The notes below the pieces were generated by a model. It did no database searches. It was not told where the DNA came from and was given only the letters and a program-made list of their open reading frames with translations. The position numbers were made by a program, and so were the translations under genes. A stretch of DNA of 64,000 nt from Sneathiella marina (GTDB lineage Bacteria; Pseudomonadota; Alphaproteobacteria; Sneathiellales; Sneathiellaceae), in NCBI RefSeq assembly GCF_023746535.1, contig NZ_CP098747.1:372001-436000 (forward strand), in the 5' to 3' direction. Shown here in pieces: positions 8,665 through 26,654 of this stretch (its first letter is position 1; each line of letters opens with the position of its first letter).

Positions 8665-8737
8665 ATAAGAGCCGTTAATACGGGTTGTATGGGCTAGAGG
8701 GCTTTGTTACTGTCCTTTTAATTCGAGGAGAAGCCCC

Positions 8738-10123
8738 GTGACCCCCAATATTGTATCTGCCGCAAACACAGAAACCCATCCAATTTTTGTCGTCGAGAAG
8801 TCTCAGTTTGATGACTGGCTAATCAGCCAACCAGAGCAATGGCAAAACTGGATCAAATCACAAGGCTTTGAGGCTGAAGGCGGCCGACATTTACTGCTGC
8901 CAAATGAAACATCCCAGTTTAGCTCCGTTTTGTACATTCGAAGTAAAGAGCTTTCAATCTGGTCTCTGGCGGATCTATCAATGAAATTGCCAAAAGGGAC
9001 TTATGCTCTCGAGGCAGAAATATCCCCGAAACAGGCAACTGACATCGCCATTGGCTGGTCTTTGGGAACATATGTGTTTGATCGATATAAAGAGAGTAAA
9101 GCTGAGCCCGCCCAATTGGTCCTACCTTCCGGTGCAGATGCAGCATTGGTCCAGCGGACAGTTAAGGCGACATATCTTGTCCGGGATTTAATCAATATAC
9201 CGGCGGCAGATATGGGGCCATCTGCACTTGAGGCCGCAGCTTCACAAATCGCTGGCGAATTTGAAGCAAGACAAGGCAATATTGTTGGAAGTGATCTCAT
9301 AACCTATCATTATCCCATGGTACATGCCGTTGGTCGGGCAGCTGCGGATCCGCCGCGTGTCATTGATATCACTTGGGGAAACCCGGATGCTCCAAAAGTG
9401 ACTCTTGTCGGGAAGGGGGTCTGTTTCGATACAGGAGGCCTGGATATCAAACCCTCCGCGGGTATGTTGATGATGAAAAAAGATATGGGTGGTGCAGCGA
9501 CGGTTCTCGGTTTGGCACATATGATCATGGATGCCGCGCTACCTGTGCGCCTGCGGGTTCTGATCCCGGCGGTTGAAAACTCAATTTCTGGGAATGCTTA
9601 TCGACCGGGCGATGTCCTAACGAGCCGAAACGGAAAAACCGTTGAAATTGGAAACACAGATGCGGAAGGAAGGCTTGTTTTAGCGGATGCATTAACGGCA
9701 GCAGATGATGATGAGCCAGATTTACTTATTGATATGGCGACATTGACCGGAGCAGCGAGGGTTGCGGTAGGGACGGAAATTTCTGCAACTTTTACGGATG
9801 ATGATGAGTTGTTTGCCGCTTTGGCAGCCCATGCCGAAATTGAGGCGGATCCGGTTTGGAGGCTTCCACTTTGGGACGGATATCGACATTTAATCGACAG
9901 TAAAATTGCCGATATAAATAACGCCGGGTCGAGCTCTTTCGGTGGTGCGATAACAGCTGGGTTGTTCCTGAAGGAATTTGTCGAAAAGAGCAAGAGCTGG
10001 GTTCATTTTGATATCATGGCCTACAATTCACGCAGCAGGCCCGGCCGCCCGATTGGCGGTGAAGCCTTTGCCCTGCGTGCTCTGTATGCAATGATTAGCG
10101 CGCGATATTCAGTTGCACCCTAA
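8738..10123 (+). CDS. leucyl aminopeptidase, M17 family
   Basis: A 461-residue cytosolic M17 aminopeptidase that removes N-terminal residues from peptides with a two-metal site. Metal and catalytic residues are all present: K226, D231, D249, D308 and E310, with the catalytic K238 and R312, in VGKGVCFDTGGLDIKPS, MKKDMGG and NTDAEGRLVLADAL. The N-terminal domain (1-150) is short compared with E. coli PepA, as in PepB-like members. The GTG start at 8738 is supported by GAGGAG seven bases upstream. The last four bases overlap the convergent reductase gene. It probably finishes breakdown of imported peptides. Confidence 0.94.
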   Translation: MTPNIVSAANTETHPIFVVEKSQFDDWLISQPEQWQNWIKSQGFEAEGGRHLLLPNETSQFSSVLYIRSKELSIWSLADLSMKLPKGTYALEAEISPKQATDIAIGWSLGTYVFDRYKESKAEPAQLVLPSGADAALVQRTVKATYLVRDLINIPAADMGPSALEAAASQIAGEFEARQGNIVGSDLITYHYPMVHAVGRAAADPPRVIDITWGNPDAPKVTLVGKGVCFDTGGLDIKPSAGMLMMKKDMGGAATVLGLAHMIMDAALPVRLRVLIPAVENSISGNAYRPGDVLTSRNGKTVEIGNTDAEGRLVLADALTAADDDEPDLLIDMATLTGAARVAVGTEISATFTDDDELFAALAAHAEIEADPVWRLPLWDGYRHLIDSKIADINNAGSSSFGGAITAGLFLKEFVEKSKSWVHFDIMAYNSRSRPGRPIGGEAFALRALYAMISARYSVAP

Positions 10124-21933: not shown

Positions 21934-22515
21934 ATGATGTTTCAGAAATATGTAGATGAATTCTCTGCTTTGAACGCTAAGCAGAAAGTTTTCCTTTTCA
22001 TCGGTGTTATTGCCATGGCGATTGTCGTCACGGCCTCTAATATTCTTGTTGAAATGCCCCTGAATGACTGGTTTACTTGGGGAGCAATTTCTTATCCAAT
22101 GGCATTTCTGGTTACTGACATTACCAATCGCACCTTAGGCGTAAGATTTGCGCGTGAAGTAGTTAGTGTCGGTTTTATCGCTGCGGTGGTGATGTCCCTT
22201 ATTCTTGCAGATGCCCGGATCGCCTTGGCTTCCGGAACAGCCTTTTTGGTCGCGCAGTTGCTGGACATAACAATATTCGACAAGTTGCGGCGGCAATCTT
22301 GGTGGAAAGCGCCTATTGCCTCTTCCGTCATTGCATCATTTGTGGATACCGTAATTTTCTTTTCACTTGCTTTTGCCGGGACGGGCCTTCCTTGGCATAC
22401 GTGGGCCATGGGAGATTACGCAGCGAAGCTTATAATGGTTGCTGTTTTGATCTTGCCATTTCGCGGCCTTATTCAAATTACAGATCCTCTCACATTATCA
22501 CCGGCCTCTCGCTAA
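21934..22515 (+). CDS. yhhQ: queuosine precursor transporter, YhhQ/VUT family
   Basis: A 193-residue inner-membrane protein of the VUT (vitamin uptake-like) family; YhhQ of E. coli imports the queuosine precursors preQ0 and preQ1. It has six likely helices. Family marks are ASNILVEMPL in the first helix, SYPMAFLVTDITNRTLGVRFAREVV, where the acidic TD pair is conserved, and ASSVIASFVDTVIFFSLAFAG. Two start codons lie in tandem (21934 and 21937). I saw no preQ1 riboswitch in the 79-base gap after pheA. Confidence 0.9.
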   Translation: MMFQKYVDEFSALNAKQKVFLFIGVIAMAIVVTASNILVEMPLNDWFTWGAISYPMAFLVTDITNRTLGVRFAREVVSVGFIAAVVMSLILADARIALASGTAFLVAQLLDITIFDKLRRQSWWKAPIASSVIASFVDTVIFFSLAFAGTGLPWHTWAMGDYAAKLIMVAVLILPFRGLIQITDPLTLSPASR

Positions 22516-22570
22516 AGAGGGCTCCACACTTTTAAACATAAAGTATCTGTGTTAAATTACTGAGACCTAT

Positions 22571-22704
22571 CTATGTGTGGCTAGGGTTCCGCTGAATTGA
22601 GGTCTGGTCCGAGCGCCATGTAACGCCGCCAATGGCAGACACCTTAAAGACTAAAAAACTAGGGGGGATAGACGGGTGCGATTTTCTGCGCCCGCAACCT
22701 TAAG
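22571..22704 (+). promoter_or_regulatory. ykkC-class riboswitch
   Basis: The leader of the EamA gene contains the two highly conserved strings of the ykkC RNA: CTAGGGTTCCG at 22581-22591 and GGTCTGGTCCGAG at 22601-22613. An outer helix is possible between GTGT (22575-22578) and ACAC (22639-22642), and GCCAT/ATGGC (22615-22636) forms an inner stem. Downstream, ACGG (22672) precedes a GGGTGC/GCGCCC hairpin with a GATTTTCT loop, in the place of the conserved ACGG...GCCCG element, but the usual GGGAGA tail is not seen. ykkC subtypes sense guanidine, ppGpp, PRPP or nucleoside diphosphates; the transporter context suggests guanidine. There is no T-run, so control of translation is more likely than termination. 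Confidence 0.82.
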
Positions 22705-22718
22705 TTTGAGTGTTTGCC

Positions 22719-23576
22719 ATGAGTCTTCTTGCCTTATTTCTTATTCTTGCTGCGGCCAGTTGCCATGCCATATGGAATTTTCTGGTAAAACGAATTGATG
22801 GCGGCCCGGAACTTGTATGGCTGTTTTCCACCTGGACTTGCATAATTTACCTGCCATTGGTTGTGATATTCTGTTGGATAGAACCCCCGGCATTCGGTGT
22901 ACGAGAGTGGCTGTTTCTTAGCGGAAGTGCCAGCATACACATGGCTTATTTTCTTCTGTTGCAACAAGGGTACAAAAAAGGAGATTTGTCTCTTGTCTAT
23001 CCGACTGCTCGTGCGACAGGACCGTTTTTATCCATAATCCTGGCCGTTCTGATTTTGGGCGAAACAGTTACGCCGCAAATTATTGTGGGTGGTGTAGCCA
23101 TAATTATCGGTATATTTTTCTTAACCGGAGGGTTTCGACGAGAGGGAACGAAATTAACAACTTCACTGACCTTCGGCTTGGCCACTGGCGTATTGATCGG
23201 AAGTTATACCGCGTGGGATGCTTATTCGGTGACGGTTCTCGCCATTCCACCGCTTATTCTGGACTACGCATCTTCGATTTGCCGAGCTGTCCTTTTATCA
23301 CCCTATGCGATCACCCGTCGTGCATTGGTCCGGCAACATTGGCGAAATCATAAGATCGCCGTGCTTTGTGTGGCCGTTTTCAATTCTCTGGCCTTTATCC
23401 TCTTTCTGATCGCGTTGACATTTACACCACTGGTCTACGCGGCACCTGCACGTGAAGTAAGTGTATTAATTACTGTCATGCTTGGAACCTTATTACTCGG
23501 AGAGGGTAATTTCCGGCAACGAATTGCATGGGCGCTATTAATTATGCTCGGGATGGTATTATTAACAACAGGCTGA
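22719..23576 (+). CDS. EamA/DMT-family transporter under ykkC riboswitch
   Basis: A 285-residue ten-helix protein of the drug/metabolite transporter superfamily with two EamA repeats (about 1-135 and 145-285). Visible marks are the LSLVYPTARATGPFLSIILAVLILGE segment type ending the first repeat and APAREVSVLITVMLGTLLLGE ending the second. ATG 22719 is chosen over GTG 22710; the ribosome-binding site (GAG in TTTGAGTG) is weak, as expected where a riboswitch controls access. If the riboswitch senses guanidine, this protein would be a guanidinium or related cation exporter, a role known for SMR proteins of the same superfamily but not assigned to this subgroup. Confidence 0.85.
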   Translation: MSLLALFLILAAASCHAIWNFLVKRIDGGPELVWLFSTWTCIIYLPLVVIFCWIEPPAFGVREWLFLSGSASIHMAYFLLLQQGYKKGDLSLVYPTARATGPFLSIILAVLILGETVTPQIIVGGVAIIIGIFFLTGGFRREGTKLTTSLTFGLATGVLIGSYTAWDAYSVTVLAIPPLILDYASSICRAVLLSPYAITRRALVRQHWRNHKIAVLCVAVFNSLAFILFLIALTFTPLVYAAPAREVSVLITVMLGTLLLGEGNFRQRIAWALLIMLGMVLLTTG

Positions 23577-23590
23577 TGATGAAACGCGCT

Positions 23591-24535
23591 TTAGGCAAGC
23601 CATGCCTTCGCCAATTGATGGGCGAGAGACATTTCCGGTGACATTCGAAGGCCGGTGGGATTTGTACTGCTCGCCAGCATTTCTCGAACCTGGTCACGGG
23701 TGAACCAACGCGCATCACCAAGTTCACTCGTGTCCACCGTAATATCCTCGCTGATAGCGTCGGCAAAACATCCAATCATTAAGGATGATGGATATGGCCA
23801 AGGCTGTGACGCATGATATCGGACATCTGCTACTTTGATACCTGATTCTTCGAACACCTCCCGTCGGACGCCTTGCTCGATGGTTTCGCCAGGCTCAATA
23901 AAACCTGCCAAGCAAGAGAAAAAATCCGAGGGGAAATTTATGCCTTGCCCCAATAAGCATTTATCCTCTTTGGTGACCATCATAATGGCGACCGGGTCCG
24001 TTCGCGGGAAATGCACGGAGTTGCAAGACGAATCAGAACAGATACGGGAATACCCAAGTTCTTGCGGATGCGTCTTGGCGCCGCATACTGCACAAAATCC
24101 GTGCCGGTTATGCCAATCAATCATCGATCTTGCTTGCGCGAGCGCGGCGGCATCTCCTGGTCGCACCTGGGCTGCGACAGACCGTACATCAATAAATTTA
24201 CCCCAGTCAGATATAGGGGGCTGTTTTGGATTTTCAATCGACGATACATCGATGGCGAAATGACAGGAAAAATCGGCAATTCCAAGAAAAATAAAAGGCG
24301 CGCCAGCGTCAATAAACTCTCGAACGTCACTGATGCCGCGCCAATCAATGCAGGCCGGTCCTTGCAAGTCGATTAGGGCTTTTAAGCCGTGTAGAGGTAA
24401 AAACCGGCTGCTCGGGTCGCTGAGTTTTTTGGCAAGCCATTCAGGATCAGAACGATGATGTGCAGCCCGGTCCAGCCGGCTGCCTGTAAATACAATAGGT
24501 TTTGTCATGGCCGGCAGAGTGTCATATGTTTTCAT
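23591..24535 (-). CDS. nudC: NAD(+) diphosphatase, NUDIX family
   Basis: A 314-residue NudC-type enzyme that cleaves NADH and related dinucleotides and, in E. coli, removes NAD caps from RNA. The zinc ribbon is CAVCGAKTHP...CSDSSC, followed by HFPRTDPVAIMMV and the NUDIX box in GFIEPGETIEQGVRREVFEESGI, where the EExGI core is intact. SQPWPYPSSLMIGC is the SQPWPFPxS motif specific to NudC. ATG 24535 is preferred over TTG 24544. It converges with the EamA gene, 14 bases apart. Confidence 0.94.
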   Translation of the reverse strand: MKTYDTLPAMTKPIVFTGSRLDRAAHHRSDPEWLAKKLSDPSSRFLPLHGLKALIDLQGPACIDWRGISDVREFIDAGAPFIFLGIADFSCHFAIDVSSIENPKQPPISDWGKFIDVRSVAAQVRPGDAAALAQARSMIDWHNRHGFCAVCGAKTHPQELGYSRICSDSSCNSVHFPRTDPVAIMMVTKEDKCLLGQGINFPSDFFSCLAGFIEPGETIEQGVRREVFEESGIKVADVRYHASQPWPYPSSLMIGCFADAISEDITVDTSELGDARWFTRDQVREMLASSTNPTGLRMSPEMSLAHQLAKAWLA

Positions 24536-24605
24536 AGATCGCAATTAGCAAGATAACATTTTGAACAATTGTTCTGATAATAAGTCGTTTTCTAAGAAAA
24601 AGGGC

Positions 24606-24639: not shown

Positions 24640-24736
24640 TGGAAGGCTGGCGATGGGCGTGCTCCTCGCGAACCCGGTCAGATCCGGAAGGAAGCAGCCG
24701 CAACGAGTTTCGGCGCGGGTCGTTGTCAGTCTTCTT
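24640..24736 (+). ncRNA. ffs: signal recognition particle RNA, small bacterial type
   Basis: The apical SRP loop and Ffh-binding site are unmistakable: CCCGGTCAGATCCGGAAGGAAGCAGC at 24673-24698, containing GGTCAG, the GGAA tetraloop and AAGCAGC. The flanking arms pair (AGGCTGGCGAT near 24644 with GTTGTCAGTCTT near 24723), giving the expected rod of about 97 nt. The RNA binds Ffh to target nascent membrane proteins. A T-rich run follows. Its position directly before dnaX is the usual alphaproteobacterial order. Ends are estimated to within a few bases. Confidence 0.95.
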
Positions 24737-24833
24737 ATTTTACTCCTTCTTCAAGATCGTCAATTGGATTATTTGTTCGGTCAATCCCGTTAATGCTTTG
24801 ATATTGTCGCCCGGTCTCTGGTAAGATCATCCT

Positions 24834-26654
24834 ATGTCAGATGAAAATTCCAGCACTCCCTATCGTGTTCTTGCTCGCAAATACAGGCCCTCGACTTTTG
24901 ACGAGTTGATCGGCCATGAAGCTATGGTAAAAACTCTGTCCAATGCGCTGGATTCGGGGCGCCTTGCACATGCGTTTGTGCTTACAGGAACGCGTGGTAT
25001 TGGCAAGACAACAACGGCGCGCATAATTGCACGCGGCTTGAACTGTATCGGTGAGGAGGGGACTGGCGGCCCGACGATTGCACCTTGCGGGGTTTGTACA
25101 AATTGTGTCGCAATAGCGGAAGACAGGCATCAGGATGTTCTGGAGATGGACGCTGCAAGCCGAACCGGCGTTGATGATATTCGAGAGTTAATCGATGGGG
25201 TCAGATATTTACCAGTCGCTGCACGATTTAAGATTTATATCATCGACGAAGTTCATATGCTTTCAAAGAATGCTTTTAATGCACTTCTAAAAACGCTGGA
25301 AGAGCCGCCCGAGCATGTAAAGTTCATTTTTGCCACAACTGAAATTCGAAAAATACCGGTTACCGTTTTGTCGCGCTGTCAGCGGTTTGATTTGAAGCAC
25401 GTTGATGGGGAAACCCTTTCTTCCTATTTTGCGACAATTGCCGAGAAAGAAAAGGCGGAGATTGAACCCGATGCGCTTGCCCTGATCGCGCGCTCTGCGG
25501 AAGGATCTGTTCGTGACGGTTTATCATTGCTTGATCAGGCGATCGCGCATGGCGACGGTGCGGTTTCTGCACTTCAGGTTCGGGATATGCTGGGCCTGGC
25601 GGACCGAACACAAATTCTCGATCTTCTAGGACTGCTAATGTCCGGCGAAATCCAGAAAGCACTAGGTCTTCTGCGGTCTCAATATGATAGCGGGGCGGAT
25701 CCAATCATCATTATTCAAGATTTATTGGAACTGACACATTGGCTTACGGCGCTGAAAGTGACACCAGAGGCGGCAAATAATGTTGCAATGTCCGGCGGTG
25801 ATGCTGCTCGTGGCCAGGAATTATCAGCAGGATTGTCTATGCCGGTGCTGGCGCGCACATGGCAAATGCTGCTCAAAGGCCTTGATGAAGTGAGAAAAGC
25901 GCCGATGTCGTTGGCGGCGGCGGAAATGGTCCTGGTTCGTATCGCCTATGTCAGTGATTTGCCGTCTCCTGAAGAACTGGCAAAACAGCTTGACCAGCGA
26001 AACGATGCGTCCCCAGCACCTGCTGCCGCTGGAAAATCAAGCCCATCGTCGGGCCCAGCTCCGGTAATGGTGGCGTCTACAGGGGCCTCGGCTGTGCCAC
26101 AAACGGTCGCTCCTGTAGCGGTTCCTGATAAAAGCCCGAGGGCCCATCTATCGATTGTCGCAAAGACTGATCCGGCGCTGGATATACTGCCTGTTGAGAG
26201 GATTCCGGAACCGGTCACAGAGAAGATTAAAGTCACAGACCCGCAATCACTTGAAGATATTATTGATCTTCTTTCTGAACGTCAGGACATCAAGCTTAAA
26301 GCTGAGGTTGCCAATTTCATGCGGCTCGTAAAATTTGAGGAAGGCCTCATAGAATTTAGCCCGACGACAGGTGCGTCACCAGATCTTGCGGCAAAACTTG
26401 GGCTTCGGCTACGTGAAATTACAGACGGTAAGTGGGTTGTCAAAATGTCGGCGGCCGCAGAGGGTGCGCCCACAATTGCAGAAAAACGGCGGCATGACAA
26501 AGCTGAGGAAATTAGCGCACTGGAAAACCACCCGATGGTACGCAATATTCAAACAGTCTTTCCAGGTGCCACAATCCGTGAAGTCCGCAATCTCGGTCCA
26601 ACCCTTGACAGCTCTGACGTACATATCATATCCGAAGAAGATGAATTCGACTAA
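24834..26654 (+). CDS. dnaX: DNA polymerase III subunits gamma and tau
   Basis: A 606-residue clamp-loader ATPase. Domain I opens with YRVLARKYRPSTFDELIGHE, carries Walker A GTRGIGKTT near residue 52, a zinc site (CIGEEG...CGVCTNC), Walker B IYIIDEVHMLS, and the arginine-finger segment LSRCQRFDLK. Domain III follows to about residue 370, then a Pro/Ala-rich linker (375-455) and a C-terminal tau region (about 460-590) that contacts the polymerase. I saw no A-run slippery heptamer that would make a gamma form as in E. coli. It is followed by ybaB and recR in the conserved order. Confidence 0.97.
   Translation: MSDENSSTPYRVLARKYRPSTFDELIGHEAMVKTLSNALDSGRLAHAFVLTGTRGIGKTTTARIIARGLNCIGEEGTGGPTIAPCGVCTNCVAIAEDRHQDVLEMDAASRTGVDDIRELIDGVRYLPVAARFKIYIIDEVHMLSKNAFNALLKTLEEPPEHVKFIFATTEIRKIPVTVLSRCQRFDLKHVDGETLSSYFATIAEKEKAEIEPDALALIARSAEGSVRDGLSLLDQAIAHGDGAVSALQVRDMLGLADRTQILDLLGLLMSGEIQKALGLLRSQYDSGADPIIIIQDLLELTHWLTALKVTPEAANNVAMSGGDAARGQELSAGLSMPVLARTWQMLLKGLDEVRKAPMSLAAAEMVLVRIAYVSDLPSPEELAKQLDQRNDASPAPAAAGKSSPSSGPAPVMVASTGASAVPQTVAPVAVPDKSPRAHLSIVAKTDPALDILPVERIPEPVTEKIKVTDPQSLEDIIDLLSERQDIKLKAEVANFMRLVKFEEGLIEFSPTTGASPDLAAKLGLRLREITDGKWVVKMSAAAEGAPTIAEKRRHDKAEEISALENHPMVRNIQTVFPGATIREVRNLGPTLDSSDVHIISEEDEFD

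Follow-up and report, generated by a model that had tools for sequence, protein, structure and literature searches.

The leader of an EamA-family transporter gene in Sneathiella marina carries an RNA of the ykkC superfamily, probably a member of the orphan subtype 2d that would act as a translational switch of the transporter gene. The assignment to 2d is based on the published description and the target genes. We analyzed a window of 64,000 nucleotides (contig NZ_CP098747.1, positions 372,001 to 436,000) from the 4.07-Mb genome, which is a single contig. In 2020, subtype 2d was the portion of the first ykkC collection that still had no assigned ligand (excerpt of PMC7266159).

The RNA in the transporter leader

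The leader lies between a queuosine-precursor-type transporter gene (21934-22515, + strand) and the gene of an EamA-family, phn_DUF6-like DMT transporter of 285 amino acids (22719-23576, +). The sequence-only reading had placed two core strings of the ykkC RNA in the leader of a DMT-superfamily gene. Both are present, CTAGGGTTCCG at 22581-22591 and GGTCTGGTCCGAG at 22601-22613, the latter ending about 106 nucleotides 5' of the EamA start codon at 22719. The CUAGGGUUCC / CUGGUCC core is combined with P1, P1a, P1b, P2, and P3, as expected of the ykkC superfamily. The whole-window Rfam search at gathering thresholds did not report a ykkC RNA. The covariance-model search proposed in that reading does return RF00442 (Guanidine-I) over 22570-22667 with 32.3 bits and an E value of 7e-4 (801 nucleotides searched), but this is under the gathering score of 63. 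Nowhere else in the genome does RF00442 match at E ≤ 0.001. With a score below the cut-off, the window RNA is therefore not an ordinary guanidine-I RNA. RF00442 was the only riboswitch family matching the leader up to E 10, and guanidine-II, -III, and -IV gave no Rfam match there up to the same value. Those three riboswitches are other RNA folds that control small-molecule exporters, and SMR proteins fall within the DMT superfamily. Two further genes stand 3' of the transporter gene: a NUDIX gene on the opposite strand (23591-24544) and a bacterial small SRP RNA gene (24642-24737, +, 57.1 bits), the latter just 5' of a reading frame (24834-26654) resembling dnaX.

Compared with guanidine-I (RF00442, subtype 1), the RNA shares the CUAGGGUUCC...CUGGUCC core and the order P1/P1a/P1b, P2, P3, but differs in the letters that mark the class. 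GAGC replaces GAGA, ACACC replaces ACACGG, and mostly GGGGGGAU replaces GGGAG; the window itself reads GAGC, ACACC, and GGGGGG. For control we used 55 loci matched by RF00442, of which L028 and L029 are below the cut-off and three have no readable marker. The marker is GAGA in 48, AAGA in three, and GAGG in one of the 52 readable loci, and ACACGG opens all readable control tails (39 of 55). The marker of the variant ends in C (xAGC) in all 33 rows of our alignment and in 8/8 further copies, and a GAGC-type marker was not included in the search pattern. The low score and the changed letters agree with the earlier proposal of a variant rather than a plain guanidine-I RNA. The usual GGGAGA tail is missing, as had been noticed, and GGGGGGAT stands where guanidine-I has GGGAG. 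Two other details of that reading were only partly correct. An ACGG string, described as kept in the 3' part, exists at 22672-22675, but at P0/P4, 3' of the aptamer, and without homology to the guanidine-I ACGG, whose counterpart here is ACACC at 22639-22643. The GCCCG hairpin also exists, as P4 (22674-22693), but outside the aptamer.

Subtype 2 was split from guanidine-I by a pyrimidine in place of A46 (excerpt of PMC6031431), and the two flipped-out pocket residues are a G followed by an A (excerpt of PMC11661666). Because of this order, and because U15, A71, and the first A are invariant in the variant rows, we infer that the second A of GAGA corresponds to A46. C22614 would then occupy the A46 position, and under this mapping the subtype 2 pyrimidine is found as C in all of the 33 rows and eight further copies.

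Relatives and conserved structure

Among 385 genomes of the class, RF00442 matched at E ≤ 0.01 in 31, and above the cut-off in 26. Three of the five sub-cut-off genomes (that of the window, G160 with locus L030, and G082 with locus L031) have the variant 3' half and an EamA gene behind it. The model R1, built from these three copies, found L033 in the same genus (125 bits) and L067 in G588 (91 bits, EamA gene behind). Scanning 84,980 species genomes with a sequence pattern gave 30 copies, and the window, L030, and L067 bring the alignment to 33 rows, which score 85-159 bits with R1. L031, L033, and L179 were left out as apparent duplicates of L093, L073, and L079. Scanning another order with RF00442 added seven copies. 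Since the pattern imposed CTAGGGTTCC, GACACC, and AGGGGGGAT in 30 of the 33 rows, the invariance of these strings there proves nothing. The 12 copies found without the pattern are informative: GACACC, the xAGC marker, and the EamA frame are present in 12/12, and the tail AGGGGGGAT in 9/12. Departures among them are AAGC in L031/L093, the tail TTGAGGGGAT in L178, and AGAGGGGAT in L180 and L183. The R1 matches L068-L071 (30-37 bits) were rejected because their tails read as guanidine-I, and L072 because it appears to be a chance match to C/G-rich sequence.

The distribution of the RNA is sparse and patchy. The model R2 separates three of the 385 class genomes (121-146 bits) from 11 with 30-51 bits, all of which are above-threshold guanidine-I genomes and were not counted; with the strict filters used, the class count is a lower bound. 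Hosts of the pattern-found copies are mostly labeled Alphaproteobacteria (Ruegeria, Cohaesibacter, Minwuia, Sneathiella, Emcibacteraceae, Rhodovibrionaceae, Hyphomicrobiales, and others), and the remainder are Vibrio xiamenensis, a 'marine bacterium', and an Anaerolineaceae MAG. In the 910-kb record labeled Anaerolineaceae, another phylum, the RNA copy (L097, 782-928) is accompanied by a divergent EamA gene with 41% identity to that of the window. No plasmid copy was found at 1e-40 with one query protein. The collected copies provide an alignment with named hosts such as Ruegeria, Cohaesibacter, and Sneathiella. Routine annotation with Rfam release 15 will probably miss the class, since no model other than Guanidine-I returned them in our scans, and each of them scored under its cut-off.

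It is quite improbable that the RNA is a divergent guanidine-I riboswitch that still senses guanidine and controls its export by the EamA protein. RF00442 is the one riboswitch family that matches, the 5' half retains the conserved letters, and 2d was described as closest to guanidine-I with a guanidine-like ligand proposed (excerpt of PMC5912903). However, the score is half of the cut-off, GAGA and ACACGG are changed in 12/12 pattern-free copies, GGGAG is changed too, and the target genes differ. In addition, G774 and G484 hold above-threshold guanidine-I RNAs alongside a sub-threshold EamA-linked RNA, and this coexistence argues for different jobs of the two RNA kinds, although the EamA-linked RNA of G484 (L145) is a different variant. 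We regard the window RNA as a probable 2d RNA, with guanidine disfavored as its ligand. L145 itself (G484, 2040-2145, - strand) has the GAGC marker and a more guanidine-I-like 3' half (GCACCCGAGGGGCAAAAUCCCAGAGGAGG). Its RF00442 score is 47.2 bits, and two above-threshold guanidine-I RNAs are present in the same genome. It was left out of the counts because its 3' half differs.

The entire conserved RNA, a ykkC variant of putative subtype 2d, extends from P0 to P4 at 22568-22700 (+; RF00442 32.3 bits) and scores 135.9 bits over 1-135 with R1, of which the window row is one of the three source sequences. All of its elements lie on the + strand. The 5' strand of P0 (UCUAU, 22570-22574) pairs with the 3' strand (AUAGA, 22668-22672), an assignment based on covariation, and P0 closes the aptamer. 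The strands of P1 (22576-22581 and 22615-22620), placed from the 33-row alignment, have both-sided changes in 3/6 pairs. The CUAGGGUUCC...GGUCC core with P1a/P1b (22581-22610) was identified by sequence, and helix 4 has both-sided changes in 5/7 pairs. It is followed by GAGC (22611-22614), in which C22614 replaces the A of the guanidine-I GAGA, by the P2 hairpin (22625-22636, both-sided changes in 2/4 pairs), and by GACACC (22638-22643), the counterpart of ACACGG. The P3 hairpin (22648-22660) is the weakest helix, its inner part being paired in 73.5% of cells. Behind it are the tail AGGGGGGAU (22661-22669) and P4 (22674-22693), a variable hairpin that separates the aptamer from the ribosome-binding site (RBS) and has both-sided changes in 6/8 pairs.

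The 33-row alignment has 39 pairs, 23 of them with both-sided changes, and 91.9% of cells are paired, a count biased by the fitting of the alignment to the structure. When the structure was slid by 1-3 columns, 33-45% of cells were paired. RNAalifold on the same alignment gave 32 pairs, 18 with both-sided changes, P0 included. P0 is paired in 98.2% of cells in the 33 rows and has both-sided changes in three of five pairs; for the remaining two pairs, the search pattern dictated the 3' letters in 30 rows. The structural evidence is comparative, because the leader folds no better than shuffled sequence (z -0.8; 44/200 shuffles fold equally well).

The conserved and covarying P0 beside P1/P3 raises the possibility of a ykkC class apart from 2d, a fifth subtype that is mostly marine alphaproteobacterial and has its own ligand. 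The 2018 text names additional 5'/3' conservation for 2a-2c but none for 2d (excerpt of PMC5912903), and L145, being more guanidine-I-like, might be nearer to the published 2d. The EamA/phn_DUF6 association is, on the other hand, that of 2d (excerpt of PMC7266159), and we find a fifth subtype rather improbable. Compared with the excerpted description of 2d in PMC7266159, our preferred 2d assignment shares the ykkC architecture, the EamA/phn_DUF6 targets, the distinction from guanidine-I, and the orphan ligand. The covarying P0 and the proposed anti-RBS switching strand are additional here, being absent from that excerpt, and no TauE target was seen among our copies. For further work, the aptamer boundaries take in P0, and shorter constructs would miss it.

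The low RF00442 score could also suggest a functionless degenerate remnant of a ykkC RNA. A close EamA homologue (E ≤ 1e-30) was present in only four of 24 genus genomes sampled; the RNA was found in two of these four, a contig end truncates another, and the last looks broken and lacks an RNA match. This last case (L035, in G389) is from a sister species, where the EamA homologue looks broken and the leader has no RNA-model match, as if switch and gene were decaying together. Conservation and covariation over 33 copies from many families, including one Anaerolineaceae record, speak against the remnant explanation, which we consider extremely improbable.

Predicted pairing of a putative switching strand with the ribosome-binding site

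In the minimum free energy fold of the window leader, AUGGCAGACAC at 22632-22642 pairs with 22710-22720 in an 11-pair helix and closes the start codon. The RBS/start region GUGUUUGCCAUG (22710-22721, +) is closed in this predicted OFF state. In many relatives (L083, L089, L096, and others), the P3 5' strand ACCUUAAAGACGA is complementary to UCGUCUUUGAGGU, and this strand appears to be the switching strand that can pair with the RBS.

We examined the pairing between the core and the RBS by shuffling the RBS among species over the 33 copies. The matched duplexes sum to -528.5 kcal/mol, compared with -433.3 kcal/mol (sd 14.1) for permuted ones, and 0/10,000 permutations reach the matched sum, although shared ancestry inflates such permutation tests. 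When 20 windows along the RNA were compared, variation with the RBS was confined to the four that start at columns 119-131 (z -3.9 to -6.4), and the other 16 have z values of -2.3 to +1.2. Column 130 forms A-U in 17, G-C in 11, and no pair in 5 of 33 rows with its P3 partner (pair 130-142), and A:U in 17, G:C in 8, C:G in one, G:U in one, and no pair in 6 with its RBS partner, the latter taken from best duplexes, which favor pairs. The column thus seems to behave as a strand with two alternative partners should. In the eight further copies, the matched combination ranks 404 of 40,320 permutations, and 6/8 beat at least 97% of shuffled RBSs.

The folding ensembles point the same way in most copies. 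Core-RBS pairing has a mean probability above 0.5 in 18/33 in the free ensemble. When the aptamer fold was imposed, the Shine-Dalgarno region became more open in 24/33 (means 0.32 to 0.44; window 0.07 to 0.44) and failed to open in 9/33, by nearest-neighbor energies that leave out the tertiary fold. Anti-RBS pairing is weak in 8/33 (L078, L079, L092, L093, L095, L097, L099, and L100), which fail to beat 95% of shuffled RBSs. Another aptamer window binds the RBS better in 14/33, including the RNA of the window itself (four windows), and cutting the core at column 119 leaves the duplex of the window RNA at only -6.4 kcal/mol.

A translational ON switch is the likely mode of action. In the absence of ligand, the strand around GACACC together with the P3 5' strand would pair with the RBS and block translation. 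The register in the window would be shifted, with the P2 3' strand and GACAC closing the start codon. A ligand bound at the junction of P0, P1, and P3 may lock the strand into P2/P3 and free the RBS. The transporter would then be turned on and move the ligand or a related compound. The ON direction matches that of the guanidine-I and PRPP switches (excerpt of PMC6031431). A specific translational switch of this kind can be tested by a simple reporter.

There is a slim chance that the RNA acts on transcription rather than translation. PRPP switches act on transcription termination (excerpt of PMC5912903), and guanidine-I was described as promoting transcription (excerpt of PMC12186494). However, no terminator-like site was found within 22400-22760, where a search for sigma-70-like promoters was likewise negative, and the RNA varies with the RBS.

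The transporter and the expected ligand

An EamA frame with HAxWN begins 43-60 nucleotides behind the tail in 33/33 copies, of which five frames are cut by the end of the locus sequence (L074, L076, L081, L092, and L095) and two end early at a stop (L082 and L084). Together with the covariation and the 12/12 pattern-free copies, this bears out the proposal of a ykkC-class riboswitch before an EamA transporter. The same gene behind every copy fits the EamA/phn_DUF6 or TauE targets of subtype 2d and not those of 2a-2c, namely purine or amino acid metabolism and NUDIX/HAD hydrolases. The 54 longest ORFs behind the control RF00442 matches include no EamA and 36 NMT1-type proteins; some of these ORFs are probably shadow frames, and L142 was left out as it has no ORF reference. 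The window transporter scores 75.3 bits with Pfam EamA, and its only NCBIfam match is TIGR03340 (phn_DUF6) with 101.8 bits against a cut-off of 288. TIGR03340 was matched by 31/31 proteins scanned, with a best E value of 1.7e-39 and none near the 288-bit cut-off. L092 and L095, with very short proteins, were left out of set A5. The sequence-only reading had presented an EamA target as a novelty. The RNA fits the published 2d with EamA/phn_DUF6 targets, so the target is not new: EamA (phn_DUF6) and TauE transporters are the hallmark of subtype 2d (excerpts of PMC7266159 and PMC5912903).

Other phn_DUF6-like proteins were found apart from the RNA. A second phn_DUF6-like gene of the window's genome (G000:C1:2408808-2409620, - strand) scores 148 bits on TIGR03340, above the riboswitch-linked gene, and has no R1 RNA, as R1 matches only once in this genome. 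An R1 scan of 30 loci (L036-L065) with proteins scoring above that of the window on TIGR03340 gave no real match, the best being 8.4 bits with an E value of 9.9.

Gene neighbors give no clue to the ligand. In 32 loci (the window left out), with mechanical ORFs and BLAST, no family occurs in more than four loci. Among the most frequent families, one is found in related lineages and another, AsnC-like by eye, in unrelated ones. No phosphonate operon was seen by eye among the listed neighbor ORFs, apart from ORFs of L082 that resemble a PEP-mutase-family protein and a TauD-type dioxygenase.

The ligand of subtype 2d was on record as undetermined in 2020 (excerpt of PMC7266159), and none of the candidates suggested earlier (guanidine, ppGpp, PRPP, or NDP) found support. 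A small, charged, toxic, guanidine-like ligand has been proposed for 2d as the variant most similar to guanidine-I (excerpt of PMC5912903). No later report of a 2d ligand appeared in the titles and abstract beginnings of open-licence PMC literature or in the portions of later reviews consulted, and a literature search on DMT proteins with guanidine-I returned only unrelated papers.

The PRPP riboswitch (2b, T. mathranii) offers a structural comparison. It shares with the variant a P0 formed from two ends and a pyrimidine at the A46 equivalent, C49 in the PRPP RNA (excerpt of PMC6031431). Its tail CCCGGGAGGAUAGG, read by eye as the reverse complement of primers (PMC6031431, in part), aligns gap-free to CUAGGGGGGAUAGA of the variant. 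In the PRPP aptamer, the ligand is contacted by A101-G105, with P0 further out (excerpt of PMC6031431), whereas the AUAGA of the variant that matches A101-G105 in the alignment by eye is itself the 3' strand of P0; the target genes also differ. The polyphosphate site therefore seems closed in the variant. Because the segment that holds the phosphates of PRPP is here paired into P0, the ligand would more likely be small and lack a polyphosphate than be ppGpp, PRPP, or an NDP. A class of its own beside 2d would combine P0 moved inward over the phosphate site, a P3 anti-Shine-Dalgarno strand coevolving with the RBS, a small metabolite moved by the phn_DUF6-like transporter, and a cassette carried also on phages; we hold this idea as a speculative, unlikely one.

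The same RNA (123.5 bits with R2) and an EamA gene occur at 8674-9681 of a viral contig (L149, IMGVR_UViG_3300026534_000121). This was the only match in viral_contigs with the two kinds of query used. The RNA and the gene are flanked by genes for a tail terminator and for phrog_6367 in a phage head-tail cluster with major head protein, head decoration, maturation protease, and tape measure genes, and appear to be a phage-borne sensor-transporter cassette. A phage with sensor and transporter would mean that the compound matters to phage-carrying cells.
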